Assembly: GCF_001701045.1 (NCBI RefSeq) | Contig: NZ_CP016757.1 | Span: 947,501-1,011,500 of the forward strand | DNA: 64,000 bases | Direction of reading: 5' to 3' | From: Cloacibacillus porcorum | Lineage (GTDB): Bacteria; Synergistota; Synergistia; Synergistales; Synergistaceae | In this document: positions 37,174-44,393 of the stretch, piece by piece | How positions within the stretch are numbered: the first letter of the stretch is position 1 | Layout: each line of letters begins with the position of its first letter | Program-made: the position numbers and the translations under genes | Notes under the pieces: generated by a model | Seen by the model: only the letters and a program-made list of their open reading frames with translations | Told to the model about the DNA's origin: nothing | Database searches by the model: none

Positions 37174-39567
37174 ATGGAAAAACAGTATAGCTATCTGGAA
37201 CGAGTCAACAGGCTAAAAGAGAAGGTATTCGATACATATCCCGAAATAGACCTTGAGGACGCGAAGCTGCTGACGCAGAGCTTCCTTGAGACCCAGGGCG
37301 AGGCGCTGGTCACGCGCAAGGCTAAGGCCTTTCTTAAACAGTGCCAGGAAAAGAGCGTCAAAATCTGGGACGATGAACTAATCGTTGGCAACGCGGGCAG
37401 CAAGATACGCGGCGGCATCCTCTCCGCCGACGTCTGCTGGTCCGTCCTCGACCGCGAGCTCGAGACCATCAACACCCGCGAATACGACAAGTTCAGGCTG
37501 CTGCCCGAAGACAAAAAGGACTTCGAAGAGATCATCCGCCCCTACTGGAAGGGGCGCTCCAACTACGAAGAGTGGCTTGCGCGCATTCCTGCCGACGTCG
37601 CCGCTCTGCGCGACAACGGCGCCCTTTACATCGACAAAAAGGCCGTGCGCGGCTGGGGCGAAGTCACCGCCGGCTATGAATGGTTCATCAGCAACGGCGT
37701 CGAAGGTCTGCGCAAAAAGATACTCGCGCGCAAATCGGAGCTTGATGCGACAGTCCCCGGAGACTACGAGAAAGAGATATACCTTGACGCGCTGCTCATC
37801 GTCTGCGAGGGTATGGAGACCCTCGCGGAGCGTTACGCTATCGAGGCCGAACGTCTGGCGGCGCTGGAAGGCGACGGGCGGCGCAAAGCGGAGCTGCGCG
37901 AAATAGCGGCCGTATGCCGCCAGGTACCCGCCTATCCGGCGCGCACCTTCCGCGAGGCGATGCAGTCCTTCTACTTCTACCAGATATGCATCTTCATGGA
38001 ACAGAACGCCGCCGCCTACAACCCGGGGCGCATGGACCAATACCTCTATCCCTACTACAAAGCCGACCTCGAGGCGGGACGCATCACCGCCGAAGAGGCG
38101 CAGGAGCTCTTCGACTGCCTCTGGGTCAAATTCTCCGAACCCTGCCTCTTCCAGGACGCCAAATCCGCGGAATACGCCTCCGGCTACCCGATGTTCCAGA
38201 ACCTCTGCGCGGGCGGCGTAGACAGCATGGGGCGCGACGCGGTAAATGATCTCTCATACATGATAATCCAGGCGACGATGGACACCCAGCTCTACCAGCC
38301 CTCACTCTCCGTACGCTACAACATGGCGAAAAACCCCAACTCCTTCCTGCGTAAAATAGTCGAGCTGATGGCTATGGGCACCGGTTTCCCCGCCTTCCAC
38401 AATGACGAAGTCGGCATCCGCATGCTCATGAACAAAGGCATCCCCCTGCGCGAGGCGCTCAACTGGAACCCCGGCGGCTGCGTCGAGACCAACCTTGCGG
38501 GCAAAATACGCGGCTACTCGGCGCTCGCCGACATCAACCTCGGCAGTGTCATGGAATTCGTCATGCTCAACGGCAAATGCCGCAAAAGCGGCAAACTCGC
38601 GGGGGCGCAGACTGGAGACCCCACGACCTTCGCTGCCTTCGACGACTTCATGGCGGCAGTTAAAAACCAGCTCCATTACGTCATAAAAGTCGTCGTCAAG
38701 GCGAGCCACATCATTGACGACATCTGCATGGGGCGCCCCGTGCCGGCCCTCTCCATCAGCTTTGAAGAATGCATCGAAAACGCCAAAGACTACGCCTGGG
38801 GCGGCGCCAAATACAACACCGGCAACGGCATAATCTGCATCGGCGTCTCCGACCTCATCAACAGCGTCGCCGCCGTCAAACACCTCGTCTACGACACAAA
38901 AAGCGTTACAATGAAGCAGCTCCTCGCGGCCCTCGCCTCCGACTTCGCGGACGCGCCGGAAATACTGAAAGCCTGCCAGGAGGCCCCCAAGTACGGCAAT
39001 GACGATCCCTATGTAGACGGCATCGCGGCGGAACTCTTCTCCTACATCGCCGACGAGATAGAGAGCTACCGCAGTAAATTCGGCGTCATGACCCCCGGCA
39101 TCCTGCCCGTCTCCGGCAACACCCCCTTCGGTGTGGAAGTGGGAGCCCTGCCCTCCGGCCGCCGCGCGGGGAAACCGCTCGCCGACGGCGTCAGCCCCAA
39201 CGGCGGCACCGACGTCAACGGCCCGACCGCGGTACTCAAATCCGTGGCCAACATCCCGCATGACCGCTTCGTACAGGGTACGCTGCTCAACATGAAACTC
39301 GACCCGCAGATGGTGAACAACGAAAACGGCATCCGTCAGATCATGGCGCTGCTTAAAAGCCTCTGTACCCTTGGCGTCTACCACGTTCAATTCAACGTCG
39401 TCGATCAGAAAAAACTCCTTGAGGCCCAGGCCCATCCCGAAGAATACCGTAACCTGCTTGTGCGCGTCGCCGGTTACACAGCCTTCTTCGTAGAGCTTGG
39501 CAAAGAGGTGCAGGACGACATCATCGCGCGCACCGTACAGAGCGAAAACGTCGTCTCCTGCGGCTGA
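37174..39567 (+). CDS. Glycyl radical enzyme (GRE3), HypD-like, paralogue of GRE1
   Basis: A 797-aa GRE with GCVET (Cys436, Glu438) and RVAGYTAFF (Gly767). It is strongly similar to GRE1 along the full length (for example WKGRSNYEEWLA, KKAVRGWGE, FMEQNAA, YNPGRMDQYLYP), yet its codons are GC-rich like the surrounding chromosome while GRE1 is AT-rich. Both probably act on the same or closely related substrates. GGGGGAAC precedes the ATG, 13 nt after GRE2. By similarity to HypD around the active site a hydroxylated pyrrolidine substrate is plausible but unproven. Confidence 0.93.
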   Translation: MEKQYSYLERVNRLKEKVFDTYPEIDLEDAKLLTQSFLETQGEALVTRKAKAFLKQCQEKSVKIWDDELIVGNAGSKIRGGILSADVCWSVLDRELETINTREYDKFRLLPEDKKDFEEIIRPYWKGRSNYEEWLARIPADVAALRDNGALYIDKKAVRGWGEVTAGYEWFISNGVEGLRKKILARKSELDATVPGDYEKEIYLDALLIVCEGMETLAERYAIEAERLAALEGDGRRKAELREIAAVCRQVPAYPARTFREAMQSFYFYQICIFMEQNAAAYNPGRMDQYLYPYYKADLEAGRITAEEAQELFDCLWVKFSEPCLFQDAKSAEYASGYPMFQNLCAGGVDSMGRDAVNDLSYMIIQATMDTQLYQPSLSVRYNMAKNPNSFLRKIVELMAMGTGFPAFHNDEVGIRMLMNKGIPLREALNWNPGGCVETNLAGKIRGYSALADINLGSVMEFVMLNGKCRKSGKLAGAQTGDPTTFAAFDDFMAAVKNQLHYVIKVVVKASHIIDDICMGRPVPALSISFEECIENAKDYAWGGAKYNTGNGIICIGVSDLINSVAAVKHLVYDTKSVTMKQLLAALASDFADAPEILKACQEAPKYGNDDPYVDGIAAELFSYIADEIESYRSKFGVMTPGILPVSGNTPFGVEVGALPSGRRAGKPLADGVSPNGGTDVNGPTAVLKSVANIPHDRFVQGTLLNMKLDPQMVNNENGIRQIMALLKSLCTLGVYHVQFNVVDQKKLLEAQAHPEEYRNLLVRVAGYTAFFVELGKEVQDDIIARTVQSENVVSCG

Positions 39568-39568
39568 T

Positions 39569-40510
39569 ATGGAAAACCGCGGCGAAACAGCCGGCTCCGT
39601 CCTGCGCATAGAAAAAAGCTCCATTCACGACGGAGACGGCCTGAGGACCGTCCTCTTCCTCAAAGGCTGCCCATTGCGCTGCCTCTGGTGCTCCACGCCG
39701 GAGTCGCAGCGCATGGTGCCCGAGCGCGGCCTCTCGCGTGAAAAATGCCTGCGCTGCGGGCGCTGCGTGGAACAATGCCCGCAGGGGGCGCTCACCATGG
39801 GAGAGGACGGCATAAACTTTGACCGTAACAGATGCGCTGGCTGTCTCAAATGCGCCTCCGTATGCCCCTCATCGGCCGTCGTGCCCTACGGCAAAAAAAT
39901 GACGGCGAATGAGGCGGTGTGCGAAATCGCGAAAGACGAAATATTCTACTTCCACTCCGGAGGCGGGCTCACCGTAAGCGGGGGAGAGCCCCTCGACCAG
40001 AGCGGATTCGTCCGCGAAGTGCTTGCCGGCTGCTGCGAGCGCGGTATCGACTGCGCCATCGAAAGCAGCTTCTTCGCGCCGTGGGAGAAAATAGAGCCGC
40101 TGCTGCCGTACATCAGCCTGCTCCATGTGGACATAAAACATCCCGACGCGGAAAAACACAAAAAACTCATCGGCGTCGACAACGGCCTGATCCTTGAAAA
40201 CATCAGGCGAGCCGACGGCGCGCCCTATGACTTCGGCCTTGTGATACGCACGCCGCTCATACCGGGTATAAACGACGGAGACGAAGATATCGTGAAACTC
40301 GCGGAGATCGTGAAGGGATTAAAAAAGCTGCGTTTCATGGAATTTCTCGCCTATCACCGTTTGGGGACGGAGACCTACAAAAGACTCGGCCTCGACTATC
40401 CTCTTGCGGAGATAAAGACGCCTGACGCCGCCTACATGCGGCGCAAGGCTGCGGTATTCAAAAGTGCCGCAGGTGTGACCGTGAAGATTAACGGCAGCAT
40501 ATTTGAATAG
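39569..40510 (+). CDS. Glycyl radical enzyme activase with ferredoxin-like insert (partner of GRE3)
   Basis: A 313-aa activase with SAM-cluster cysteines 34, 38 and 41 (GCPLRCLWC), two extra [4Fe-4S] cysteine sets (CLRCGRCVEQCP, CAGCLKCASVCP) and SGGEPLDQSGF. The ATG at 39569 is 1 nt after the GRE3 stop; an earlier in-frame ATG at 39497 would lie inside GRE3 and is rejected. It is closely similar to the activase of GRE1, matching the GRE1/GRE3 paralogy, and ends the operon. Confidence 0.94.
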   Translation: MENRGETAGSVLRIEKSSIHDGDGLRTVLFLKGCPLRCLWCSTPESQRMVPERGLSREKCLRCGRCVEQCPQGALTMGEDGINFDRNRCAGCLKCASVCPSSAVVPYGKKMTANEAVCEIAKDEIFYFHSGGGLTVSGGEPLDQSGFVREVLAGCCERGIDCAIESSFFAPWEKIEPLLPYISLLHVDIKHPDAEKHKKLIGVDNGLILENIRRADGAPYDFGLVIRTPLIPGINDGDEDIVKLAEIVKGLKKLRFMEFLAYHRLGTETYKRLGLDYPLAEIKTPDAAYMRRKAAVFKSAAGVTVKINGSIFE

Positions 40511-42602: not shown

Positions 42603-43886
42603 CTATTTCTCTCCGTTGAGCAGCAGCGCGCTGTTCAGCAGTACCTCTAGGGCGATTGTCATCGCCGTTTCGTCAAAGTCGAAGCGATTGTTATGGTGGC
42701 CGGCAGCTGTTGCCGCCCCGATTCCGACGTAGGTAGCAAGACCTCTTCGCTCCTGCACTCGCCGCATGAACCAGCAGGCGTCGTCGCTGCCGGCCATGGC
42801 GCGGTATTCCTCGCGCTGCGTCACCCCTTCGGAGTTTTCCGCGGCCTTCATTATCACAGCGGCGAGCTTCCTGTCGCTCTCAGCCGTGATTGTCTCTCCT
42901 TGTTTAGATATAGATACATCCACATCGTACATTTGAGCCGCGCCGTAAATCACCTCTTTAGCCTTCGCGTAGACATATGAGGCCAGCGCGTCGCTCTCTC
43001 CTCGCGTCTCTATCTTCATATGGGCGTTGGGAGGTACAACGTTGCGTCCCTCGCCGGCATTTAGCACACCAACGTTTACGCGGGTCGCACCACCGGAATG
43101 GGGTGCGATGGCGTGCATGTTGACTGCGGCGGCCGCCGCCGCGAGCAGAGCGTTCTTACCGCGTTCCGGTTCGCCGCCAGCATGAGCGCCGACGCCACGG
43201 AAATCAGCGTCGAATTTTGTGGAGCATAAAAAACCGCCGGTACCGCCGAATACGCTGCCGGTCGGTTTCCCAAGGCCAAGGTGCATGGCGATGAAATAGT
43301 CTGCGTCGTCGGCGACTCCAGCCATCGACATCGCATAACCGCCACGTACGCCCTCTTCCGCAGGTTGGAATATGAGCCGTATCTTTCCCCTTAGCCTGTC
43401 TTTTGCCTCCGAAAGCATCTCGGCGAGGGCAAGCCCTACAGCGGTATGTCCGTCATGGCCGCAGGCGTGCATACATCCGGGGTTTACGGAGGCAAAACCT
43501 TCGCGCGCTGGAAGATGCTCCGTGTCTCGCGCCTCCTCGGTATCGACACAGTCTATATCGAAACGAAAAATAGTGACCGGGCCTTTTTTGCCGGTGTCGA
43601 GTAGCGCTGTGAGGCCGGTATAATCCCCGATCTTTGTGAGTATCTTTTTATCTGCGCCCTGCGCGGCGGCGCGTGCCCTCTCCCGCTTTGGGTCTATCGT
43701 ATAGCCCATGACCTCGTCAGGGTCGATGAAATCTTTTGCAAAGCGCACCTTCCATCCGGCCTTAGTAAGAATTCCGGCAATTACCGCCGTTGTCCTGAAC
43801 TCCGCCCAGCCGCTTTCTGGATATTTATGAAAATCCCGGCGGCGTGTGCTCATCTCGTCTTTTATCTTCTGCGGTATTGCCATCAT
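42603..43886 (-). CDS. M20-family amidohydrolase/peptidase
   Basis: A 427-aa M20D-like amidohydrolase related to hippurate and N-acyl-amino-acid hydrolases. Visible are the RRRDFHKYPESGWAEF start, the metal site CMHACGHDGHTAVG, QPAEEGVRGG with the catalytic Glu pair, HLGLGKPTG and the C-terminal AAGHHNNRFDFDE. It probably removes N-acyl groups or cleaves amides to free amino acids. Start at 43886 (ATGATG) is 10 nt after the stop of the selenocysteine ArsC-like gene, so both are likely on one transcript. Confidence 0.88.
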   Translation of the reverse strand: MMAIPQKIKDEMSTRRRDFHKYPESGWAEFRTTAVIAGILTKAGWKVRFAKDFIDPDEVMGYTIDPKRERARAAAQGADKKILTKIGDYTGLTALLDTGKKGPVTIFRFDIDCVDTEEARDTEHLPAREGFASVNPGCMHACGHDGHTAVGLALAEMLSEAKDRLRGKIRLIFQPAEEGVRGGYAMSMAGVADDADYFIAMHLGLGKPTGSVFGGTGGFLCSTKFDADFRGVGAHAGGEPERGKNALLAAAAAAVNMHAIAPHSGGATRVNVGVLNAGEGRNVVPPNAHMKIETRGESDALASYVYAKAKEVIYGAAQMYDVDVSISKQGETITAESDRKLAAVIMKAAENSEGVTQREEYRAMAGSDDACWFMRRVQERRGLATYVGIGAATAAGHHNNRFDFDETAMTIALEVLLNSALLLNGEK

Positions 43887-43896
43887 TCTTCTACCG

Positions 43897-44250
43897 CTAC
43901 CGCGCAAGCTTTTCGGCCCATTCGTCCTCTTTGAATCCGACCAGCACTCTGTCCGGAAGGACGGCGAGCGGCCGTTTGACCAGCATCCCGTCCGCGGCGA
44001 GCAGCGCTATCTGTTCGTCCTCGGAGAGCTCCGGCAGCTTTTTGCTGAGGCCCAGCGCCTTGTAGGAGTTGCCGCTGGTGTTGAAAAATTTCTTCAGCGG
44101 CTGCCCCGAAAGCTTCCACCACGCTTTTATCTCATCGGCAGTGGGGTTTTCCGTCTTGATGTTGCGCTCCGTATATTCGATCTTGTGTTCTTTGAGCCAG
44201 CCCCTGGCTCTCTGACATGTTGTTCACTGTGGGTAACAGAGTAAAAGCAT
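43897..44250 (-). CDS. ArsC/Spx-family protein with a predicted selenocysteine (UGA read-through)
   Basis: Reading the minus strand from ATG 44250 gives 8 residues (MLLLCYPQ), an in-frame TGA at 44226-44224, then an uninterrupted frame to TAG at 43897-43899. The full product is 117 aa and matches the ArsC/YusI-like thioredoxin-fold family: after the UGA come TTCQRARGWLKEHKIEYTER, then ENPTADEIKAWW, SGQPLKKFFNTSGNSYK, LGLSKKLPELSEDEQIALL and NGMLVKRPL-like DGMLVKRPLAVL. The UGA replaces the first Cys of the usual C-x-x-C, giving U-T-T-C. A bSECIS-like hairpin follows. GGAG lies 10 nt before the ATG. A standard ORF caller would miss it or start it too late. Likely a redox enzyme; arsenate reduction is not shown. 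Confidence 0.88.
44194..44210 (-). promoter_or_regulatory. Predicted bacterial SECIS hairpin inside the ArsC-like gene
   Basis: On the minus strand a perfect 6-bp stem GAGCCA/TGGCTC encloses the loop GGGGC. The stem starts 14 nt and the loop 20 nt after the UGA. Bacterial SECIS elements are short in-frame hairpins just downstream of the UGA with a G in the apical loop (as in E. coli fdhF), so both position and loop fit. Confidence 0.75.
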
Positions 44251-44363
44251 AGACGATCATCTCCAACTATTTGTAATATTTAAATTATAATATGTTTTAG
44301 CGGTTTTTATTCAATCTATCTGCAGCATTCCATAGGCGAAATTACCGATGTCCGCCGCGGGAA

Positions 44364-44393
44364 GAAAAAAGAGGCCCCCCATACGGGAGCCTC
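44364..44393 (-). terminator. Terminator after mrp
   Basis: On the minus strand GAGGCTCCC pairs with the GGGGGGCCTC side (one bulge), followed by TTTTTTC. It lies about 25 nt after the mrp stop. Confidence 0.85.

Follow-up and report, generated by a model that had tools for sequence, protein, structure and literature searches.

A putative selenocysteine-containing member of the ArsC family in Cloacibacillus porcorum and its exchange with cysteine forms among the Synergistaceae

ArsC-like proteins containing selenocysteine (Sec) have been on record since 2005-2006 (PMC1088965, PMC1794560). The marine arsenate reductase selenoproteins of the Sargasso Sea carry a UxxS motif and belong to TIGR00014 (PMC1088965), ArsC-like selenoproteins have been described in the Deltaproteobacteria Desulfotalea psychrophila and Desulfuromonas acetoxidans (PMC1794560), and the selenoproteins reported in 2008 from the GOS metagenome as 'Arsenate reductase 2' have a UxxC motif and were typed as cd03032 (PMC2398784), that is, ArsC_Spx. 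The last of these is apparently the arsenate reductase-like protein NF041106 of a 2026 review. The statement in the preliminary description of this DNA, that Sec forms of ArsC-like proteins had appeared in bacterial surveys, is correct, such forms having been published in 2005-2008. Synergistetes are already known as a selenoprotein-rich phylum (PMC5029168), and a 2025 survey counts 18 known selenoprotein genes in Cloacibacillus porcorum CL-84 (GCA_001701045.1) and no new ones (PMC12013277); the Sec gene described here may already be among the 18.

This gene lies on the minus strand at 43897-44250 of the window, by which is meant the whole 64,000-nucleotide stretch of C. porcorum DNA that was analysed. 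Its frame opens with the ATG at 44250-44248 and closes with the TAG at 43899-43897, and the TGA at 44226-44224 (codon 9) is the sole in-frame interruption, being followed by 108 sense codons. Read with UGA as Sec, the product has 117 residues and begins MLLLCYPQUTTCQRARGWL, with U9 in the first position of a UxxC motif, where the aligned Cys homologues have TGC or TGT, and with the putative resolving residue C12 encoded by the TGT at 44215-44217 and invariant as Cys in the family alignment. When Cys is placed at position 9, the protein matches Pfam ArsC at 65.6 bits (cut-off 24) and passes the cut-off of NCBIfam TIGR01617 (arsC_related; 111.9 bits against 75.05). The frame from ATG 44250 to TAG 43897, broken only by that TGA, had been proposed beforehand with the context CYPQ-U-TTCQRARGWL; both are borne out by reading of the sequence, and the UGA does occupy the place of the family's first Cys of CxxC, a Cys in almost every homologue.

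Compared with the described systems, the window protein resembles the GOS 'Arsenate reductase 2' proteins in its ArsC superfamily membership, in having Sec in place of the first CxxC Cys and in the exchange of Sec and Cys among homologues, a comparison made by motif, family and profile. It scores only 26.9 bits on the curated subfamily NF041106 (ArsC_rel_Se_1; cut-off 85) and belongs instead to TIGR01617; a search of the whole genome with the NF041106 profile gave no match at E <= 0.001. It shares with the deltaproteobacterial proteins the condition of a Sec form of an ArsC-like protein, although these come from a different phylum and the likeness is drawn from their published description. The Sargasso Sea forms are also of the ArsC family with an N-terminal Sec, but they have UxxS and belong to the true ArsC subfamily, whereas the window protein has UxxC and falls below that cut-off. 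Because it falls outside NF041106, the Synergistaceae TIGR01617 Sec branch may be uncurated, while being of the same kind as the known ArsC-type selenoproteins.

The assembly, a single contig of 3,585,187 bases, holds a tRNA-Sec with anticodon TCA (77.4 bits, cut-off 47), together with selA (561.6 bits), selB (380 bits) and selD (321.1 bits), all above cut-off. Thus selA, selB, selC and selD, which it had been suggested to look for in this genome, are all present. The selD gene (G000:C1:1842426-1843355; L019 ~1531-1581) is interrupted in turn by an in-frame TGA where its active site is encoded (TSG-U-AAKIAP), with a 6-bp hairpin, AGCTCC-GGC-GGAGCT, directly after it; the genome thus has another Sec gene built in the same way. 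Among the other one-TGA frames of the window, inspection by eye turned up no convincing candidate.

Downstream of the UGA, a bSECIS-type hairpin (GAGCCAG-GGG-CTGGCTC, minus strand) extends over 44194-44210, with arms at 44204-44210 and 44194-44200 and the loop at 44201-44203. The stem begins at nucleotide 14 after the UGA and the loop, with G first, 20 nt after it. The 6-bp hairpin with a GGGGC loop noticed earlier at 14 nt past the UGA is real, the 7-bp drawing with a GGG loop being its minimum free energy (MFE) form, at -11.5 kcal/mol and with a z of -2.3 relative to dinucleotide shuffles. According to the published bSECIS model, the loop has 3-9 nt with a G within its first two positions, the stem has 4-16 bp, the distance from the UGA is 16-37 nt and the MFE is <= -7.5 (PMC13188914); the present hairpin fits this model, with its 3-nt GGG loop, 7 bp, 20 nt and -11.5 kcal/mol. 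When the peptide was recoded 400 times with synonymous codons, a SECIS-like hairpin of equal strength never appeared. An Rfam scan of the 64-kb window at gathering thresholds gave no matches, a general bSECIS model not being expected in that collection.

The same element can be followed through the relatives. Of the 15 distinct UGA forms, 13 have a complete 5-bp stem at the same offset; among Cys forms it is complete in 2 of the 14 from Synergistaceae (p = 1.5e-4) and in 3 of 73 overall. This stem spans the KA..WL codons and reads AAGCC/GGCTT or GAGCC/GGCTC, some variants having G-U pairs, and in three sequences the outer pair has changed on both sides, from A-U to G-C. Stem cells are paired in 97% of cases in UGA forms and 77% in Cys forms, the loop G (column 25) is found in 15/15 UGA forms against 19/73 Cys forms, and the Ala codon of the stem is GCC in 16/16 against 18/74. 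In most UGA forms the stem has just 5-6 bp, several of these forms fall short of the -7.5 kcal/mol set by the published model, and hairpin P values for single sequences tend to be modest (median 0.10). For the 45 nt that follow the UGA, the total MFE is not unusual against synonymous recoding (P 0.33) and is alike in the UGA and Cys groups; the constrained hairpin test and the positional conservation of the hairpin are what discriminate, and total MFE does not.

Among 63 relatives in the genome contig collection, all but one of those covering the site have Cys, and the lone exception is a UGA form from the Synergistaceae. Within this family the gene is present in 32 of 53 genomes, codon 9 being UGA in 17 (this one included) and TGC or TGT in 14; in an eighteenth genome of the UGA group a TGA was counted, its codon position not being read out. 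Neither TAA nor TAG was ever seen at codon 9 in the Synergistaceae forms read, and no match to the gene was obtained in the 24 genomes sampled from other families of the order. selA is found in 18/18 genomes of the UGA group (one without the codon read) and in 6/14 Cys genomes (Fisher p = 2.9e-4, a statistic that ignores shared ancestry); phylogenetically independent pairs number only four, of which two agree, none opposes and two tie, which is not significant. One genome (G073), considered as a possible UGA form lacking selA, was rejected, its codon 9 being TGC and the counted TGA its terminal stop. Two Cys copies assigned to the Synergistaceae (G034, L106; G069, L116) are placed by the tree among Clostridia sequences. 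A contamination of about 7% is listed for each of the two genomes, and these copies may be contaminants or transfers.

That the nearest relative, of the same genus, has a Cys codon (TGC) at position 9, and that conventional translation stops after 8 residues, would accord with a pseudogene, in which the UGA would be a recent nonsense mutation of a once-Cys ArsC-like gene. This is very unlikely, and is refuted in practice by the relatives: the UGA recurs at codon 9 in 16 other Synergistaceae genomes without ever giving way to another stop, the UGA forms are confined to selA-positive genomes, the SECIS-type hairpin is conserved, and the 108 open codons 3' of the UGA are under purifying selection (dN 0.16, dS 0.72 versus the congener). 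An error of sequencing or assembly, with TGA in place of TGC or TGT, has the Cys form of the congener in its favour and nothing more; it is exceedingly improbable, given that independent assemblies share the UGA at codon 9 and that the window has the hairpin peculiar to UGA forms. Such an error, which the preliminary description had listed among its possible refutations, is excluded by those 16 other genomes, and the unrelated frame disruptions that it had also named were not seen in the relatives, which carry UGA at codon 9 or else an intact Cys form. With every refuting condition that it named examined and none borne out, its interpretation of the gene as a selenoprotein is supported. We infer that Sec is inserted at codon 9, and, judging from sequence, the gene almost certainly encodes an ArsC-family selenoprotein of the TIGR01617 branch, its UGA-9 being read as Sec by means of the hairpin at 44210-44194. 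SelB and Sec-tRNA(Sec) would carry out this decoding, guided by that hairpin.

The AlphaFold2 model of the product (pLDDT 94.9) has an ArsC/Spx fold, with residue 9 immediately ahead of helix 1, and lies 0.7 A from 3gkx, a putative ArsC family related protein of Bacteroides fragilis. This is the closest solved structure, of the same fold, and also the best sequence match among solved structures (E 4.8e-41); it differs in being a Cys form, and its function is putative. The core conserved in Sec and Cys forms comprises C/U9, T11, C12, N57-x-SG, DGML-x-KRP and G105. In the proposed glutaredoxin/ArsC fold, U9 would open helix 1 with C12 one turn further, the U9 selenolate would attack an oxidised substrate, and C12 would resolve the intermediate as a selenenylsulphide. 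The protein most likely acts as a general thiol/selenol oxidoreductase with a UxxC motif, within the TIGR01617 branch.

Two more specific functions can be weighed against that of a general oxidoreductase. As in Spx of Bacillus subtilis, an RNA polymerase-binding transcription regulator of the same fold, the U9-C12 selenenylsulphide could be a switch: the best NCBIfam subfamily carries the name Spx/MgsR, Spx structures match the model at TM ~0.85, and the CxxC at the equivalent place is the redox switch that controls Spx (PMC2801614). An Spx-type selenoprotein is nevertheless unlikely, the protein scoring 67.4, 56.7 and 50.6 bits against Spx cut-offs of 123, 159 and 152. Moreover, Spx G52, which contacts the alphaCTD, and R60, on which trxB activation depends, both of them tested residues (PMC2801614), align with P51 and S59 here (alignment with 3gfk), and the Spx-like C-terminal tail is lacking (117 versus 131-132 aa). 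As for a selenoprotein arsenate reductase, membership of the Pfam ArsC family and the match of the model fold to E. coli R773 ArsC (TMq 0.78) speak for it, but its probability is smaller still, the TIGR00014 score being 33.5 bits against a cut-off of 106.05. Of the three ArsC arginines known from the literature, R60, R94 and R107, the protein plainly has just one, the R of the KRP motif, and ars genes were not found next to the Sec gene.

The neighbours of the gene are of the Mrp/ApbC, M20 and Lrp/AsnC types. In the window, a hairpin resembling an intrinsic terminator (44371-44393, minus) closes the upstream Mrp/ApbC-type gene, and a weak sigma-70-like promoter (TTGAAT, 16 nt, TATTAT; 44287-44314, minus), a consensus match only, precedes the Sec gene. 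Downstream lies an M20-family amidohydrolase gene (42603-43886, minus), its order kept in several Sec and Cys relatives. The listed ORF of this amidohydrolase, 42603-43907 (minus), opens at TTG 43907, inside the Sec gene; ATG 43886 is the likelier start, and since it sits 10 nt past the stop of the Sec gene, the two genes are probably co-transcribed. The order Mrp - Sec/Cys gene - M20 is common to Sec and Cys forms, and therefore supports their orthology. Elsewhere in the window, a glycyl radical enzyme and its own activase are encoded at 37174-39567 (+) and 39497-40510 (+); the enzyme passes the TIGR01774 subfamily cut-off and is far below every equivalog cut-off (CutC, HypD, HpsG, others).

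The tree requires at least four changes between Sec and Cys on well-supported branches, their direction being read from tree neighbours. Three supported sister pairs differ in this respect, namely this genome and its congener (G000/G001), G029/G014 and G027/G009. In the Cys form of the congener, neither the loop G nor the outer pair of the stem survives. The Cys form of G009 (L092 721-1068, minus), in a selA-positive genome, still has a SECIS-like hairpin of 8 bp at the expected position, probably a fossil SECIS left by a recent change from Sec to Cys.

Standard ORF calling would cut this gene at codon 8, and the Sec reading restores a real gene, while knowledge of selenocysteine coding is left unchanged by it. 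In this analysis, the TIGR01617 Sec branch was seen in Synergistaceae alone, outside the curated Sec subfamily. It is conceivable, though unlikely, that this branch is a selenium-based redox switch, perhaps resembling Spx, in which Sec and Cys have replaced each other in both directions, recent revertants to Cys still bearing fossils of the SECIS. What the Synergistaceae do offer is a clean natural Sec/Cys series among close relatives, with three well-supported sister pairs and one Cys form retaining the hairpin, a setting for testing what is gained and lost by using selenocysteine.
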